A DNA stretch of 37,925 nt from a virus. The notes beneath the pieces are model-generated. The model made no database searches and had not been told where the DNA came from. It saw only the letters and a program-made list of their open reading frames with translations. The position numbers and the translations under genes are program-made. Every line of letters begins with the position of its first letter. Position 1 is the stretch's first letter. The DNA is taken from positions 1 to 37,925 of the IMG/VR virus record IMGVR_UViG_3300047157_000036; one strand, written 5' to 3'. Shown here one piece after another: positions 8,365-37,925 of the stretch.

Positions 8365-9630
8365 TTAATATCCTGCTATTGCGTCCATTGGTTCCCATTC
8401 GTCTAGTTCTATGCTGCCTGCGTAGTCTGCTACACTAACTTGGTCTATATATGCAAGGCTATCCAGTAAATCATCATGGCTAAGAGGGGAAGGGAAGTCC
8501 ATCATTTGGGAAATAAAGTGGTCATTCCAATCTGCCTTTCTAAATTTTATCTTACCATGCTCTAGTCGTCCTTGCAGCGACCATGTAATTCTGTCTATCT
8601 TTCTTTTACCGCCATGAGTAACATCTGTTATGTTAACCCATCTACCGTGTGTCCTCATCTCATCTTCAAGATAAGGCATGATTGCGTTCTTTAACGCTCC
8701 GGCTTCAATTCCGACAGTAGTTGCTTGACTTTCAATTGCAGCCTGTAGTATTTTAAAAGCAGTTTCTTTAATACCCCATCTACCATGATATATATCCTTT
8801 ACTAACCATTCGTCATTAACAATCTTAACTACTGATATTGCTGTTTCGTCTAACTTACTTGACTTTAAACCTCTGTCTTTACTTGTTGCTTCAAACCCTG
8901 CTGGGTCTACTGCGACTACATAATGACCTATTGTACCTTCCGCAAAGTCTGTTTCATTATCGACATACTTAATCCACTCTTCCTTAAATATTCCTCCTGT
9001 GAAGGATTCAAAGGTGGCTTCAAATTCCTGCCTGAACGCTTGAGTAGACATTGTACTCTTTGCAGCAGCGATTTCTTTGGGGTCCAGTAATGGATTATCT
9101 GTAGAATTAAATTGAAATGCTTGCCAGTCATCATCTTGTTGTGCTTCTATGTATAGTTTATAAAAATGATTCTTTCCTGCAGGGGTACCAATAAACATAG
9201 CACCACCTTTTACATCTGCAAGAGTAGGTCTTAAAATCATTTCCCACACTTCAGGCTTCATACTGGCATATTCATCAAGTACAACGTACTCCAATCCTAC
9301 ACCCCTCAAAGTATCTGGTCTATCTGAGCCTTTAAGGTATATCTTTCTGTCGTTGACTAAAGTTAACACTGCTGTGTTTTCGTGAGCAGCTTTTATAACA
9401 TCCTGCCCTAACTCCTTTAGCATACCCCACATAATATCTTTTGATTGTTGGAATGTGGGACCAACGTAAAATACGTCTTTGCTTTTGCTTTGTAGTGCTT
9501 TGATTAATAAAACCCAAGCAGCTAACCTTGACTTACCAAATCTTCTACCTGCTGCAACAACTTTAAAACGAGCAGGAGATTTAAATATCTCCATCTGAGC
9601 ATCATGGAGAGAAACTTTAATATCAGCCAT
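8365..9630 (-). CDS. terL: Terminase large subunit (packaging ATPase/nuclease)
   Basis: 421 residues. The ATPase domain shows a Walker A-like AGRRFGKS at residues 27-34 and Walker B VVLDE at 116-120, followed by the coupling region GTPAGKNHFY around 149-158. The nuclease domain has VVAVDPAG with Asp242 and a late acidic motif SHDDLLDSLAYID near residue 390-400. The start overlaps the terS stop as TAATG. It docks on the portal, drives DNA translocation and cuts the concatemer. The cutting mode (pac, cos or direct repeat) cannot be told from the protein alone. Confidence 0.93.
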   Translation of the reverse strand: MADIKVSLHDAQMEIFKSPARFKVVAAGRRFGKSRLAAWVLLIKALQSKSKDVFYVGPTFQQSKDIMWGMLKELGQDVIKAAHENTAVLTLVNDRKIYLKGSDRPDTLRGVGLEYVVLDEYASMKPEVWEMILRPTLADVKGGAMFIGTPAGKNHFYKLYIEAQQDDDWQAFQFNSTDNPLLDPKEIAAAKSTMSTQAFRQEFEATFESFTGGIFKEEWIKYVDNETDFAEGTIGHYVVAVDPAGFEATSKDRGLKSSKLDETAISVVKIVNDEWLVKDIYHGRWGIKETAFKILQAAIESQATTVGIEAGALKNAIMPYLEDEMRTHGRWVNITDVTHGGKRKIDRITWSLQGRLEHGKIKFRKADWNDHFISQMMDFPSPLSHDDLLDSLAYIDQVSVADYAGSIELDEWEPMDAIAGY

Positions 9631-9998
9631 TAATCGTCTATAGCTTCTATTACTTCACCTTCAAAGGTAGCTTGTTCCTCTGCTTCTTGCTTTTCTATAG
9701 CCTTTACGGATTCAACAATAATATTTATTCCTAAATCCTGGTGTTCATGTTTTATTTCAACAGCTTTATGTGCTGGAACAATTCTATCCATGCACATCTT
9801 TAAACAATGTCTATCACCTTTTAAGGCTAACTCAATAACCTTGTCCACAATCTCTGGACCTCTTGCTGATAATACTTCTCTGCTTAAAGCTGTATATTTG
9901 TTTACTGAACCTACGGGTCTGCCTGCTGGATTCAATGATGGCATGCCCTTGTATAAATTGGGATTACCTGCTTTTCTTTTTTTTGTTTCCTTTGGCAT
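9630..9998 (-). CDS. terS: Probable terminase small subunit
   Basis: 122 residues from the ATG at 9998, beginning MPKETKKRKAGNPN. The segment LNPAGRPVGSVNKYTALSREVL is the DNA-binding style N-terminus I associate with small terminase-like proteins. The C-terminal half is helical and acidic. A longer frame opens at 10058, but a sigma70-type promoter lies inside that extension with its predicted transcript start near 10031, so the longer start would not be transcribed from it. AGGACAAAGG precedes the ATG at 9998. It directly precedes terL. Its role would be recognising phage DNA and loading it into TerL. The family call is from sequence style and position. Confidence 0.72.
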   Translation of the reverse strand: MPKETKKRKAGNPNLYKGMPSLNPAGRPVGSVNKYTALSREVLSARGPEIVDKVIELALKGDRHCLKMCMDRIVPAHKAVEIKHEHQDLGINIIVESVKAIEKQEAEEQATFEGEVIEAIDD

Positions 9999-10037
9999 AC
10001 CTTTGTCCTGTGTTAAAAAGGGAGGTTCTATACCCCT

Positions 10038-10066
10038 ATTATACCACGCTTTGTTCATAATTGCAA
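10038..10066 (-). promoter_or_regulatory. Extended -10 sigma70-type late promoter (leftward)
   Basis: On the minus strand TTGCAA (10066-10061), a 17-base spacer and TATAAT (10043-10038), preceded by TGG so that an extended -10 (TGnTATAAT) is also present. The predicted start is near 10031, giving a leader of about 33 bases to the terS ATG at 9998. It is the only strong leftward promoter I can see near the head of the late block and probably drives terS onward. Host RNA polymerase would read it, since no phage polymerase is recognised. Confidence 0.75.
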
Positions 10067-10191
10067 CACTTTTCTCAAAAAAGCCACTAATTGTACCTTT
10101 GGGTTAGTAAATTGCTAATGTGGGGTCCAAATTCCATCTCATGTGCTATTGAGCTAAAGTTTAACTTTCGAAATTATAAAAAAGGGTCCCC

Positions 10192-10297
10192 CCGTGGCTG
10201 TGCGTGGCTCAGAATGGCAACTTCTGACCAGTCATGGCTCATCATGGCAACGGGGGATTGTGGTCCAGTGTGGCAATGTGTGGTCATGAGTGGTAAG
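10192..10297 (+). repeat. Array of ten decamer repeats, TGG every 10 bp
   Basis: TGG begins at 10195, 10205, 10215, 10235 and 10245 (TGA takes the place at 10225), then after a 16-bp step at 10261, 10271, 10281 and 10291. Most units read RTGGCW or GTGGT. All are on the plus strand, so they face the same side of the helix within each half. CCCCCGT (10189-10195) and ACGGGGG (10250-10256) form an inverted repeat around the first half. The exact 10-mer TGGCTCAGAA recurs at 10205 and 10370, and further TGGC copies lie at 10349 and 10414. The array lies between the divergent promoters beside terS. It could be an origin, an operator or a packaging site. No convincing gene is visible in 10067-10515. 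Confidence 0.75.
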
Positions 10298-10436
10298 TCT
10301 GAATAAAAGTGTCTGTGATAGTCAACGATTAGCTCTAAGCACTAGGTATGGCAGGGTAGAGAAAAATAATGGCTCAGAAACAAAAATCAATTATTATTGG
10401 GGTAGTAATACAATGGCTAGGGTTTGGGGTTTGCGT

Positions 10437-10446: not shown

Positions 10447-10515
10447 GCATTCTCGAGCGTCTGAGAGCATATTGATAATATATGCAATTATTTAATAAAA
10501 TAATCAAAATAAAGC

Positions 10516-10543
10516 TTGACAATGAATAAATTATCATTAATAT
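10516..10543 (+). promoter_or_regulatory. Rightward early promoter P1
   Basis: A perfect -35 TTGACA (10516-10521), a 16-base spacer and TAATAT (10538-10543) as a 4/6 -10, with an AT-rich upstream stretch. The core AAGCTTGACAA, then 11 bases, then TCATTAA is repeated with the same spacing at 11795-11821 (P2), which argues that it is functional. The first early gene begins at 10575. A host sigma70 promoter is the simplest reading. Confidence 0.7.
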
Positions 10544-14558: not shown

Positions 14559-16169
14559 ATGGAACAGCAACAAGGCACCTTTGTTCAACACGAACCATGT
14601 CCATCATGTGGCAGTAAAGATAACCTAGCAAGGTACTCTACTGGTCAAGGATATTGTTTTGGATGTGGACATTGGGAAGGACCTAATGGTCAGAGTAAAG
14701 CTGAACCAATTATAGAGGATAAGAGTATGCAATTATTTACAGGTAACAGTGGTGCCATTGTAGACAGAGGCATCAACGAGGATGTAGTACGAAAGTATGG
14801 TGTTACCTTACAGTATGGAGAGGATGGTTTAATCAAGAAGCATTGCTATCCTTACCATGATGCTGACAATGGTGAGCATCTAGGTAATAAGGTACGCACT
14901 GTTGAGTCTAAAGACTTTCTATATGATGGTAACAGTAAGGATGTAGGATTGTTTGGAGAGAACTTATTCAAGGGTGGTGGTAAGTACATCACAGTCTGCG
15001 AGGGCGAGCTTGATGCAATGAGTGTTCACCAAATGTTTGGTAACAAGTACGCATCAGTCAGTCTACGCACTGGCTCTAAAGGTGCGAAGAACGATATTAA
15101 GCGTAGCCTTGAGTACCTAGAGTCCTTTGACTCAGTGGTCCTGTGTTTTGACAATGACAAGGCAGGCAAGGAAGCAGTCAAAAGTGTAGTGGATTTGTTC
15201 TCACCTAATAAAGTTAAGGTGTGTAAGCTACCTCTCAAGGATGCTAATGAGATGTTATTGGCAGGTAAGATTAGTGACTTCACTAGACAGTGGTGGGATG
15301 CTAAGTCTTATAGACCTGATGGCATCATAGCAGGTGAGGACACTTGGGATATATTGACAGAGGAGATTCGTGTTGAGTCTGTTCCTTACCCTTGGCTTGG
15401 ACTTAATGACCTAACTTATGGATTTAGAACTAGCGAGTTAGTGACCATTACCAGTGGTGCAGGTATGGGTAAATCTCAGATGGTTAGAGAACTGGAACAT
15501 TACTTGCTCAATGCAACAGAAGATAACATAGGTATACTAGCACTAGAGGAAACTTCAAAAATTACTACGCTTGGAATTATGTCCGTTGAAGCTAACAAGC
15601 CACTACATCTTAACATGCAAGACATAGAAGATAGTGAACTTAAAGGTTATTGGGATAAGACACTAGGCAAGAAGCGTGTGTTTATGTATGACCACTTCGG
15701 TAGTACCAATGAGGATAACTTACTCTCCAAGGTACGCTACCTAGCCAAAGGTTTGGACTGTAAGTGGATTGTACTGGACCACCTGTCTATCGTAGTCAGT
15801 GACCAAGAGGTTATGGATGAGCGTAAAGCTATTGATAGTATCATGACTAAGCTACGACAGCTCGTACAGGAAACAGGCATAGGCTTATTCCTTGTTTCTC
15901 ATTTACGTAGACCAATGGGCAAGGGTCATGAAGAAGGTGGCAAAATAAGCCTCTCAGAGCTTCGTGGGTCAGCAAGTATTGCACAGCTCTCTGACATGGT
16001 GATTGGTTTAGAGAGAAATCAACAAGCTGATGACCCTGTTGTCCGTAACACAACTATACTTAGAGTCTTAAAGAATAGATTCAGTGGACTCACTGGTCCT
16101 GCATGTGCCTTGCATTATGATAAAGAAACTGGTAGAATGAAGGAAACAGATTCAGTGGGAGAATTTTAA
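14559..16169 (+). CDS. T7 gp4-type DNA primase-helicase
   Basis: 536 residues. A zinc-binding domain has Cys14, Cys17, Cys33 and Cys36. The TOPRIM primase core shows CEGELDA (Glu148) and FDNDKAG (Asp198, Asp200). The RecA-like helicase has Walker A GAGMGKS (300-306), the Walker B aspartate in WIVLDH (Asp407), and the switch SHLRRP near 447-452 with ELRGSASIAQ after it. It unwinds DNA ahead of the polymerase and lays primers. The length is close to T7 gp4. The stop overlaps the polymerase start as TAATG. All key motifs look intact. Confidence 0.95.
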   Translation: MEQQQGTFVQHEPCPSCGSKDNLARYSTGQGYCFGCGHWEGPNGQSKAEPIIEDKSMQLFTGNSGAIVDRGINEDVVRKYGVTLQYGEDGLIKKHCYPYHDADNGEHLGNKVRTVESKDFLYDGNSKDVGLFGENLFKGGGKYITVCEGELDAMSVHQMFGNKYASVSLRTGSKGAKNDIKRSLEYLESFDSVVLCFDNDKAGKEAVKSVVDLFSPNKVKVCKLPLKDANEMLLAGKISDFTRQWWDAKSYRPDGIIAGEDTWDILTEEIRVESVPYPWLGLNDLTYGFRTSELVTITSGAGMGKSQMVRELEHYLLNATEDNIGILALEETSKITTLGIMSVEANKPLHLNMQDIEDSELKGYWDKTLGKKRVFMYDHFGSTNEDNLLSKVRYLAKGLDCKWIVLDHLSIVVSDQEVMDERKAIDSIMTKLRQLVQETGIGLFLVSHLRRPMGKGHEEGGKISLSELRGSASIAQLSDMVIGLERNQQADDPVVRNTTILRVLKNRFSGLTGPACALHYDKETGRMKETDSVGEF

Positions 16170-17904
16170 TGAAACAAATTATACTAGACATAGAAGCTAA
16201 TGGTCTTAGACCTGACACTATATGGTGTATAGTTGCAAAGGAGGTAGAGTATGGAACTACTAACACATTTATTGGCGAAGATATTTTTAGTTTTCCTGAT
16301 TGGGTACGTCTTAATAACATTACTCACATTTGTGGGCATAATATTATTGGATATGATTTACCCGTACTTGGAAAAGACTTACGGGATTCAAATGGGAAAA
16401 AGCTATTCAAGATACGCTAGTCATGTCAAGACTTGCCAACCCTAACAGGGAAGCAGGTCATTCACTAGAGTCATGGGGTAACAGGCTTGGCTTTAGCAAA
16501 GGCGACCACTCTGAATGGGGTGAGTTCTCTTGGGATATGGTTGAGTATTGTAAGCGTGATGTTGAGTTAACTGAGAAGGTATACGAAACATTGACCAAGG
16601 AACTGTCAGGTTTCAGAGAGGAAAGCATCAAGCTTGAGCATGATGTTGCTCGTATCATTACCCAACAGATAGAGAATGGTTGGTTTATTAATGAGCGTGA
16701 AGCTAACATACTACTCGGTGAGCTGAGAGAAAAGCTACATAATGTAGAGGTTGATGTGCGTAATACATTCAAGCCACTACCTGTGTGGATAGACTTACAG
16801 CATCCCGGTGACAAGTGGTACAACAAGGATGGTAGTACGTCCAAGCGTGCACAAGCACAGCTAGATAAGGGTGCACATTACAAAGACAACAAGTGGGGTT
16901 ACTATATATACCCTGAGTTTAACCTTGGCTCTCGTCAACAGATAGCTAGGTACCTTAAACACTTTGGTTGGAAACCTGCTGAGTTTACAGAGAAAGGTAA
17001 CACGATTGTTAATGAGCGTGTACTTAATGAGGTAGACTTACCACAGGCTAAACAGATAGCTGAGTATCTTATGTTACAGAAACGTGTAGCACAGGTGCAG
17101 AGTTGGGTAGATTCAATCGAGATTGATGGTAGAGTACGTGGCTATGTCAATCCTATCGGTGCTGTGACTGGTCGCATGACACATGCTAGACCTAACTTAG
17201 CACAGGTACCTGCATCCTATTCACCTTATGGTGCTGAGTGTCGTAAGCTATGGACTGTAGAACATGGTAACTTCCTAGTAGGTATGGATGCCAGTGGTCT
17301 TGAGTTACGTATGCTCGCCCACTATATGAATGACCCTGCCTATACTCGTGAGGTATTAGATGGTGACATTCATACTGCTAACCAAAAGTCTGCCGGTCTA
17401 CCTACTCGTGACCAAGCCAAGACTTTCATCTATGCTTTCCTATATGGTGCAGGTGATGAGAAGATTGGTAGCATTGTAGGTGGTACATCTGCTGATGGTA
17501 AGCAAGTCAAAGCAAAGTTCCTTGATAACACACCTGCTCTCAAGTCTTTACGTGAGCGTGTAGCGACAGCATCTAAGCGTGGCTACCTCATAGGCTTAGA
17601 TGGTAGACGTATCATAGTAAGGTCTGAGCACTCTGCTCTTAACACTTTACTTCAAGGTGCAGGTGCTATCGTCATGAAGAAAGCTTTAGTCCTTCTTGAT
17701 AAGAACGCTAGATGGCGAGAGCTTAACTATAAGATTGTTGGTAACATACATGATGAGATACAGACAGAAGTTCTTGATATGGATTCCAAAGCTTTTGGTG
17801 AGCTCGCTGTTCTTGCAATAGAAGAAGCAGGCAAAGCCTTTAACCTTAACTGTCCACTGGATGGTGAATACAAGATAGGAGAAACGTGGAATGAAACGCA
17901 CTAA
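16169..17904 (+). CDS. Family A DNA polymerase with 3'-5' exonuclease, frame interrupted at an A5 run
   Basis: The first frame (83 codons) has Exo I LDIEANG and Exo II HNIIGYDLP, then stops at 16418-16420. The -1 frame continues AIQDTLVMSRLANPN, Exo III YCKRD, motif A MDASGLELRMLAH, motif B RDQAKTFIYAFLYGAG and motif C IHDEIQTE. The junction reads exactly like T7 polymerase (DTLVLSRL), so one protein of about 578 residues is intended. Adding one A to the A5 run (16397-16401) restores it; -1 slippage on AAAAAG is the alternative. The ATG at 16423 has no ribosome site. The codon at 17431 places Tyr at the position equivalent to E. coli Phe762. It replicates the phage genome with the SSB and helicase. 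Confidence 0.9.
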
Positions 17905-35906: not shown

Positions 35907-37925
35907 CTATCGAGCGTTACTATTTTTAAAAGGGTTTTCTGCAAAACTAATGAAAATGTAATTTCCACTAGATGCATTTATTTTTGACCAAGAGTTTCTT
36001 AACTTAAAACCATTAGATAAAATGTCTACTCTGTCAGCAACGCTACTATCTTCTGCGGCACTATCATTTGCTTCAAGAACATTATTACCACCGTTATATC
36101 CAACTCTTTCATTATCTAGCATTACCCAACTATCAGCACTATCAGTTCTTTTAACCATTACAAAAGCTGGTCTAAACCCTGTGTACACAAATGTACCATC
36201 AGCATTACCATTACCAGTATATGAACCGACCTTAGAGTAGCCATCTACAGAGTGAAAACAGTAGGCTATAAAAGTTTCTGAATTAGCATTAACAACTGCG
36301 TTTTCACCTACAGTAAATACTGAACTTGTTGGTGCTGTGTTATTCCAAACATTAGAATTTGTATAAGCAACTTCTGTAGTATTCAAAGTATATGTTTTTG
36401 TTGCACCATTAGTTTTGTCATACACCATCCAACTACCAGAATTGCTTCGTTTTTTAACTAACACAAACTCTGGTGTTTTAGATAATCCGTGACCTACTGT
36501 AGAATTTGATGAATTACCTGTATAGCTAACAATACTAAACCCAGCATCCGTATTAGCACTAACTGTAGAGTTTATAGAGCCAGTAGTATTAGCTGAGCCA
36601 CTACCGTTTGCTTTCCAGTTCCAAGCTACATATATATGGTCATCATAATTAGGAACATTTGTTGAAGAAGTTGCTCCTAAAGTAAAACCATTTGTATCAA
36701 AAGAAACTAAATTATTATGTGCAGAATGTGTTCCTTCAGCAGCAGCATCATTTGAATGTATAGCTTTTGTATTACCAGTTCCTCTTACAGCATCATACAA
36801 AGTATGGAAATAAGTATCTTCTCTATTTTTTGTCCAAACAAGGCTTGGCTCAAAACCTACTGTGATTGCATTTGTAGAAGCGTTACCAGTATAAAGCACA
36901 GTATTAAAATGCTCACTAGGAGTAACAGCTACATCTGGCAAGTTCTTTGTGCATAAAGCTAAGAAGCCTGTAGGTGGTGTGTAGTAGAAGTCACCTATAT
37001 CATTACCATCTTGATTGCCTTGTGCTGTCTTGTTACCAGCGAATGAGGAGTCTTGACCGAAGTTGGCAATAACAGAAGAATTATCACGAACTGTAAGTCC
37101 AGCTAACCAAGTGCCTGTAAGACCAGTAACAAAACTATTACCTGTTGTACCAGCCTGTATTTCACTTGCAGTAGCAGAATTAAGCCAAGTATTATTTTTG
37201 CCTATCCATAATGTACCAGTATCGGCATTATAAGCAAACTGCATAATATCACCGTTGGTATATGTACCATAACTTCCAGAAGAACTGCTAGTTCCAGAAA
37301 ACCATTGACCGTTTAAATTATATAAACTATATGAACCTGATGTATTACCAATATGAGATGAGCCAAATGAATTGTGTTCGGTGTTGGCAATTCCTAACAT
37401 TACTCGCTCAGAGGAAGAAGGATTACCAATTAAAATATTTACTTCCCAATACCATTTTCCTGAAGTCATACCTAATGAAGATTCAAGTGTTCCAAGCCAC
37501 CCAGCACCACCGTAAGCAATTCCAAGATTACCTTCTGTTTTTACATAACTGCTATTTCCACTTACAGGATTAAAGGTAGCAAAGTTATTCGTAGGACTAT
37601 CAACAGATATATCTGACTCTGTTAGGTTATTACTTGTCCAGTCATTATTGTTACCACTTTGGTCTAGCCAGTATGCGTACTCTCGTTTGTCAGCGAAAGC
37701 CATATAGATGTAAGTACCACCTGAACCATTTAAGTCTGTGTCTGTATGTGTTAATTGAAATCCTGTAGAAGTAAATTTAAGTCTTTCGTAATCACCACTT
37801 TCTGCATTAGACAAATTAGGATAGAGTGCCTTACCTTTTTCTGCTTCAGGTTCTCTAGTATTGTCATACATATACCAGTTAGCAGAAGCATCAGTTCTTT
37901 TAATCATTACGAATGCTGGGGCAAA
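35907..37925 (-). CDS. Giant tail adhesin, C-terminal part (runs off right edge)
   Basis: Open from the right edge to a stop at 35907. The edge reads FAPAFVMIKRTDASANW, the middle of the repeat whose start is at the left edge of the window. A SPRY-like domain follows (SGKWYWEVNILIGNPSSSER, YNADTGTLWIGKNNTWLNSA), then three more repeats: FEPSLVWTKNREDTYFHTLY, VGHGLSKTPEFVLVKKRSNS, TGFRPAFVMVKRTDSADSW, ending YIFISFAENPF. With the left-edge part the protein would be about 1,470 residues. An internal ATG at 37907 is not a real start. Probable host-recognition adhesin on the tail. Confidence 0.88.
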   Translation of the reverse strand, partial: FAPAFVMIKRTDASANWYMYDNTREPEAEKGKALYPNLSNAESGDYERLKFTSTGFQLTHTDTDLNGSGGTYIYMAFADKREYAYWLDQSGNNNDWTSNNLTESDISVDSPTNNFATFNPVSGNSSYVKTEGNLGIAYGGAGWLGTLESSLGMTSGKWYWEVNILIGNPSSSERVMLGIANTEHNSFGSSHIGNTSGSYSLYNLNGQWFSGTSSSSGSYGTYTNGDIMQFAYNADTGTLWIGKNNTWLNSATASEIQAGTTGNSFVTGLTGTWLAGLTVRDNSSVIANFGQDSSFAGNKTAQGNQDGNDIGDFYYTPPTGFLALCTKNLPDVAVTPSEHFNTVLYTGNASTNAITVGFEPSLVWTKNREDTYFHTLYDAVRGTGNTKAIHSNDAAAEGTHSAHNNLVSFDTNGFTLGATSSTNVPNYDDHIYVAWNWKANGSGSANTTGSINSTVSANTDAGFSIVSYTGNSSNSTVGHGLSKTPEFVLVKKRSNSGSWMVYDKTNGATKTYTLNTTEVAYTNSNVWNNTAPTSSVFTVGENAVVNANSETFIAYCFHSVDGYSKVGSYTGNGNADGTFVYTGFRPAFVMVKRTDSADSWVMLDNERVGYNGGNNVLEANDSAAEDSSVADRVDILSNGFKLRNSWSKINASSGNYIFISFAENPFKNSNAR

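Follow-up and report, generated by a model that had tools for sequence, protein, structure and literature searches.

How the terminase small subunit (TerS) recognizes a phage genome is debated, both as to wrapping or threading of the DNA and as to reading of sequence or shape, and few DNA-bound structures are available. SPP1 is a headful phage with permuted ends. Its TerS was proposed to wrap bent pacL DNA in a nucleosome-like manner, and for SPP1/SF6 TerS local structure seems to matter more than sequence (PMC4856287, PMC4737164); HK97 TerS threads DNA through its channel (PMC11331095). Short direct terminal repeats of 159–173 bp, with a conserved G+C-rich region at their 5′ end, were found by PacBio reads in Cobavirus ICBM1 (PMC6775973). 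Phased repeats at phage termini are an already known kind of element. The record of HTVC019P (NC_020483) has an exact 162-bp terminal repeat at positions 1–162 that starts just after ATGAGGGGGTA, and a strong 13-bp repeat was measured at positions 161–400 of T7, which we take to be the SRL short-repeat array.

The DNA analyzed here (the window) is a virus record 37,925 bases long, whose genes form two arms that part at about 10.1–10.6 kb, the leftward arm carrying terL, the portal and the major head protein and the rightward arm an SSB-like protein, a primase-helicase, a family A polymerase, a Cas4-like exonuclease and a ribonucleotide reductase. The family A DNA polymerase (16169–17904) is in two frames, 16169–16420 and 16423–17904, the polymerase profile matching the first just before the part matched by the second. 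Two large tail-fibre-type frames on the − strand, at 1–2398 and 35907–37907, look like the two halves of a single gene interrupted by the ends of the record and one base out of frame with each other, so that the record is probably nearly complete, not closed. Between the two arms, the sequence-only reading had described TGG motifs at exact 10-bp steps in two runs, and all nine were found in place, at 10195, 10205, 10215, 10235, 10245, 10261, 10271, 10281 and 10291. The vacant tenth site of the array, 10225, has TGA, and the step between the runs is 16 bp. We consider it probable that this array forms the core of a packaging and maturation site, lying inside a direct terminal repeat, in an uncultured marine podovirus-like family. 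The array and the neighboring terminase genes are as follows:

10195–10293, + strand: helically phased array of TGG steps with TGA at 10225; exact positions, and 10-bp phasing conserved in relatives.
9630–10058, − strand: putative terminase small subunit, 142 aa, DUF5681-like; adjoins terL; Pfam DUF5681 E = 1.8e-5.
8365–9630, − strand: terminase large subunit (motor and nuclease), predicted to cut at both boundaries described below; phrog_2 E = 3.9e-42.

The earlier placement of terS next to the array is borne out insofar as gene 9630–10058 stands directly before a clear terL; the name itself is given by position, since the DUF5681 match of its product is weak and below the curated cut-off. 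Over the whole 37,925 bases, the top 4-mer match count at 10, 20 and 30 bp fell near 10186–10196, as did the top 3-mer count at 10 bp, making the array the most strongly 10-bp-periodic stretch of the window. Its decamers have only TGG in common, unlike a fresh duplication. A coding origin of the spacing was ruled out, 10 not being a multiple of 3, and so was an RNA element, as neither strand of the segment folded better than shuffled sequence (z = −0.04 and −0.91) and Rfam gave no match. The inverted repeat that had been said to bracket the first run is present (CCCCCGT at 10189–10195 and ACGGGGG at 10250–10256) but not conserved; it is probably incidental, because L100, a close relative, carries a mutated right arm, ACGGGTG.

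The search of IMG/VR with TerL and TerS gave 146 loci. Upstream of terS, close relatives carry TGG and/or CCA at 10–11-bp steps with many changes between them, and this phasing was found in nearly every close relative whose terS-upstream region could be read. The phased TGG predicted for relatives was thus found, although TGG itself is not essential, as in distant relatives other words are phased at 10 bp. Array words vary by lineage (TGGCAA, TGGCCA, CTCAAG, CATAGG, GTGGTCCGTA and others), and those of distant relatives at the same pitch include:

L028, CTCAAG; L072, GGGACTAAGC; L032, CATAGG; L030, TGGTC.
L125, CATGGGA; L282, CCGAAGAAT.

In 37 non-redundant arrays (the window and 36 relatives filtered for low k-mer overlap), the summed 4-mer self-match against dinucleotide shuffles gave z = 57, 12, 37 and 19 at 10, 11, 20 and 30 bp, respectively, values that overstate independence because related sequences are counted separately; the stronger argument lies in the word changing from lineage to lineage. 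Individually, 31 of the 37 arrays were at the resolution limit of mononucleotide shuffles (p ≤ 0.0033), and those of L066, L288 and L293 showed no significant phasing in the shuffle test. The early-side control was flat, with no phasing in the same shuffle test, and the terS-side control deviated slightly from flat at 10 bp, since phased repeats occur there too in some lineages. Specifically, in a subset of 24 sites the match at d = 10 was seen in the array of all 24, in 19 of 24 for the 100 bp before the left of two conserved boxes that frame the array (see below) and in 14 of 24 for the 90 bp past the right cut; in this subset phasing was absent from the spacer between left box and GGG and further into the early region. 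On the late side of the left box, L031/L032 carry a second phased repeat, gacctaagta, in several copies outside the left boundary, so that some lineages flank both cuts with arrays. The phase of AA/TT relative to the cut gave a Rayleigh R of 0.56 across lineages (p = 1.7e-4, period 10.5), which, with 26 tests and related sequences, is only a hint and was not retained as evidence of bending. Stronger purifying selection on the phased TGG/CCA was likewise not retained, the substitution ratio relative to other array positions being 0.75, a weak figure from overlapping pairs.

Part of this pattern could come from neutral tandem-repeat slippage in an unconstrained intergenic stretch, and the near-identical tandem decamers of L030 and L282 indicate that duplication does feed arrays. 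As a full account, slippage has next to no probability in our estimate: it does not fit the decamers of the window, which share TGG alone, a 10-bp pitch held across unrelated words, the confinement of arrays to one frame, or the phase-lock of TGG to the cut box. Repeat units in the present sample measure 10–11 bp only. An operator array at which a phage or host regulator controls divergent promoters would suit an intergenic position that has divergent genes and promoter-like sites to either side, and both divergent promoters and such an operator had been put forward from the sequence. Promoter-like matches do occur at 10066–10038 on the − strand and at 10472–10501 and 10516–10543 on the + strand, making promoters on both sides plausible but weak, as the scan yielded 6 sites where 3.3 ± 1.5 were expected. 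On either side the best such match is >100 bp from the array, and no promoter-like site overlaps it; moreover, the word turns over while pitch and place relative to the boxes stay, and an operator predicts neither a terminal repeat nor shared contig ends. The operator proposal thus found no support, and we regard it as highly unlikely.

In contrast to the word, the surroundings of the array are fixed. The family-wide order is left box, 55–60 bp, GGGKCCCC, array and right box TGANNN^, and the array varies between 97 and 287 bp in length while the distance from left box to GGGKCCCC stays at 55–60 bp. In the window this frame reads as follows:

10124–10156, + strand: left box GGTCCAAATTCCATCTCATGTGCTATTGAGCTA, conserved family-wide, with the predicted cut just after it; contig boundaries of G001, L217 and L061.
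10184–10193: GGGKCCCC element, here GGGTCCCCCC, conserved, ~26 bp inside the left boundary.
10301–10321, + strand: right box GAATAAAAGTGTCTGTGATAG, with the predicted cut after 10321 (TGATAG^TC); relatives' contig ends and conserved box.
10157–10321: putative direct terminal repeat containing the array; homology to the 128-bp repeat of G001 and relatives' contig ends.

The start of the putative repeat may lie anywhere in 10157–10160, giving a length of about 162–165 bp. The left box of distant members is GGTCCAAATTGCTTCYCATGTGGTCCTGAGTGTA, and the right box ends in TGANNN family-wide, mostly followed by TRG. In most TGG-type lineages, the window included, the last TGGs stand 31–33 or 23 bp before the end of the right box; array and box therefore share a helical register. 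The window lacks ~100 bp or more that is present in L082/L100, the loss beginning within one base of the predicted right cut (10321/10322). The close relatives L003, L084, L088 and L096 have a perfect palindrome, GCATAACATGTTATGC, or a variant, GCATAACAGTGTTATGC, ~10–40 bp past the right cut, and L105 has the palindrome twice, 867 bp apart; it stands before the first early gene, as an operator might, and none was seen at the matching place in the window.

The boundaries of metagenome contigs fall on this frame. Five late-side contigs from five datasets (G001/L089, L098, L113, L011/L091 and L134) end exactly after TGANNN, and L041, L125 and L032 end 7–14 bp beyond the right box. Five coincident ends among ~22 contig ends in 600 bp occurred in 0 of 200,000 simulations. 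On the left, the early-side contigs G001 and L217 begin 26 and 25 bp before GGGKCCCC, respectively, and the late-side contig L061 ends at the left boundary, at ATGAGGGTA, the left box of distant relatives. The left boundary is marked by these two early-side contigs only, its position differs by up to 3 bp between alignments, and a wider search for early-side contigs gave no new starts there. Contig boundaries (five at the right, two early-side at the left) thus point to fixed left and right cut positions that would be common to the relatives. In G001 (38,197 bp), the first and last 128 bases are identical and correspond exactly to the segment between the two boundaries, the contig opening with CGGAGTGCG and closing with GCGAGTGATTG, as would be expected of a direct terminal repeat. 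The window's own record ends in the tail-fibre gene, with no terminal repeat visible.

The 128-bp repeat of G001 is no proof by itself, because circular contigs come out of assembly with exact overlaps of comparable length at their ends, and such overlaps, of 94 and 123 bp, were seen at unrelated places in two other relatives. In a marine phage, a 125-bp overlap at the ends of circular contigs was interpreted as a terminal repeat (PMC10504331); end overlap alone is weak evidence. Ends of metagenome contigs can also come from assembly branching, a real alternative for single contigs because strains often differ 1–2 bases after the right cut, in many cases at the second base. Branching there would, however, mostly place the break one base beyond the position seen. 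A further point against the terminal-repeat reading is that some of the exact late-side ends are in lineages whose putative repeats are longer than the common assembler k, where a break is less expected.

The same ends bear on the type of cutting. A cos- or pac-type site with one cut at the right box, in which the array is a cosB/pacL-like TerS site to the left of the cut and nothing is duplicated in the virion, would account for the five exact contig ends at that box; the G001 overlap could then be assembly closure, as the 94- and 123-bp overlaps illustrate, and SPP1 offers known TerS sites flanking one cut (PMC4856287). With a single cut shared by early and late ends, as in cos phages of the lambda/HK97 type, early-side contigs would begin at the right cut, yet G001 and L217 start 128 and ~220 bp before it, at the left boundary, where the late-side L061 also ends, and G001 starts and ends on two different boundaries. 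We therefore rate a single-cut site as rather unlikely. The single fixed late end in several contigs speaks against headful packaging from a pac site (SPP1/P22 type).

An iteron-like replication origin at the point where the arms diverge, which would not exclude packaging at the same place, had also been suggested. In its favor, the cumulative GC skew is lowest at about 10 kb, the two divergent arms flank the site, and phased repeats resemble iterons. The skew, however, follows the coding strand, which switches there; no initiator was recognized among the early-arm proteins scanned, a set that took in part of the small ORFs; iterons share one word, whereas the array word differs between relatives; and an origin leaves the contig ends at both boundaries and the terminal repeat unexplained. 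With neither an initiator gene recognized nor a shared-word repeat, the origin reading gained no support and is in our judgment very unlikely.

Packaging is therefore the reading that we retain. The earlier suggestion, a TerS ring on a site of the pac type, draws support from the conserved position, from the phase-lock to the box in TGG-type lineages and from the contig ends bounding the array. Judged from sequence comparison, the packaging-site reading is well supported, with TerS as the candidate binder and the two boundaries as putative virion ends. We infer that the contig ends are physical termini, that the phage of the window has them, and that binding by TerS, wrapping and the order of cuts are as follows. 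The phased array would mark concatemeric DNA and be engaged by an oligomer of the DUF5681-like TerS (gene 9630–10058), with all repeats on one helix face because they are 10 bp apart. The DNA would probably be wrapped or curved around the TerS ring, and TerS would position TerL, which may then cleave after 10321 in the right box (TGATAG^) and near 10157 at the left box, yielding a linear genome with a direct repeat of about 162–165 bp at each end. Motifs placed every 10 bp on the same face suit a ring of identical subunits with DNA curved along it; the repeat number varies between lineages and matches no single ring size.

The TerS core is nearly invariant among 28 sequences while the array word changes, so that base-specific reading by TerS is not obvious from these comparisons; the combination fits a reading of pitch or shape. 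A change of a few residues could alter TerS specificity, or the array could be read by another protein. Covariation between TerS and the word was not retained, as overall TerS identity to the window does not follow the word (67% for L032 with CATAGG, 64% for L030 with GTGGTC). The AlphaFold model of TerS is poor (pLDDT 60, pTM 0.32), its best-predicted part being three short helices at 54–96, a PDB search gave no meaningful fold match, and no solved relative of TerS was found; for these reasons no helix-turn-helix is claimed. Tentatively, and with less than even confidence, we propose that a conserved TerS ring reads the 10-bp periodicity, as DNA curvature, with any word, so that pitch and cut phase would be under selection and the word would either drift or serve as a lineage barcode; such a barcode, if true, would separate a phage's own DNA from that of co-infecting relatives.

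As the family keeps its ten-base spacing while the word changes by lineage, the comparison suggests that the packing machine may read the pitch of the helix as much as the letters. Dozens of natural sites with a fixed 10-bp pitch and a varying word offer a test set for TerS recognition, in which pitch, word and ring size could be varied independently in vitro, and the frame provides a sequence signature for locating the genome ends of uncultured marine phages from assemblies alone. The family is, on present comparisons, known only from metagenomes, because a clear TerS of its kind is missing from all isolates of the phage collection. At the sensitivity used, none of the isolates there had detectably related DNA or TerS, with the exception of one partial 34% TerS match, and the TerL search found isolates only below 60% identity. 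Contigs of cellular genomes gave two distant TerS relatives only, both in MAGs.

Compared with the known systems, the locus combines shared and distinct traits. In the pac region of SPP1/SF6 (pacL–pacC–pacR), repeats and TerS contacts lie on either side of the cut, a layout to which the present one may be likened, but the SPP1 box repeats are few and form no array of decamers, and little preference for them was seen with SF6 TerS. The G+C-rich 5′ part of the ICBM1 repeat can be likened to GGGKCCCC of the window family; the ICBM1 repeat has no comparable 10-bp array, with 4, 2 and 3 matches at 10, 20 and 30 bp (p ~0.01). HTVC019P, also a marine podovirus, has a C-run ~25 bp inside its left boundary and a phased CCA array nearby, and its ATGAGGGGGTA resembles the left box of distant relatives (ATGAGGGTA). 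That CCA array, at 222–305 with 12- and 10-bp steps, lies ~60 bp past the repeat, unlike the in-repeat array of the window family; it is common to HTVC022P, HTVC105P, HTVC021P and Jormungand. An array that fills the terminal repeat at one helical turn, with the word changing and the pitch fixed, was not found in the open-access literature or the records compared. T7, like the window family, has short phased repeats beside a direct terminal repeat of about 160 bp, and T7 and the window phage both carry a T7-type primase-helicase and a family A polymerase. The window array is nevertheless not of the SRL type, in which repeats with a ~13-bp pitch lie outside the terminal repeat: the T7 terminal repeat itself has no comparable 10-bp array and the T7 repeats lie just outside it at a 13-bp pitch that is not one helical turn, whereas in the window family the array has a 10-bp pitch and a word that differs from one relative to another, and it fills the putative repeat.
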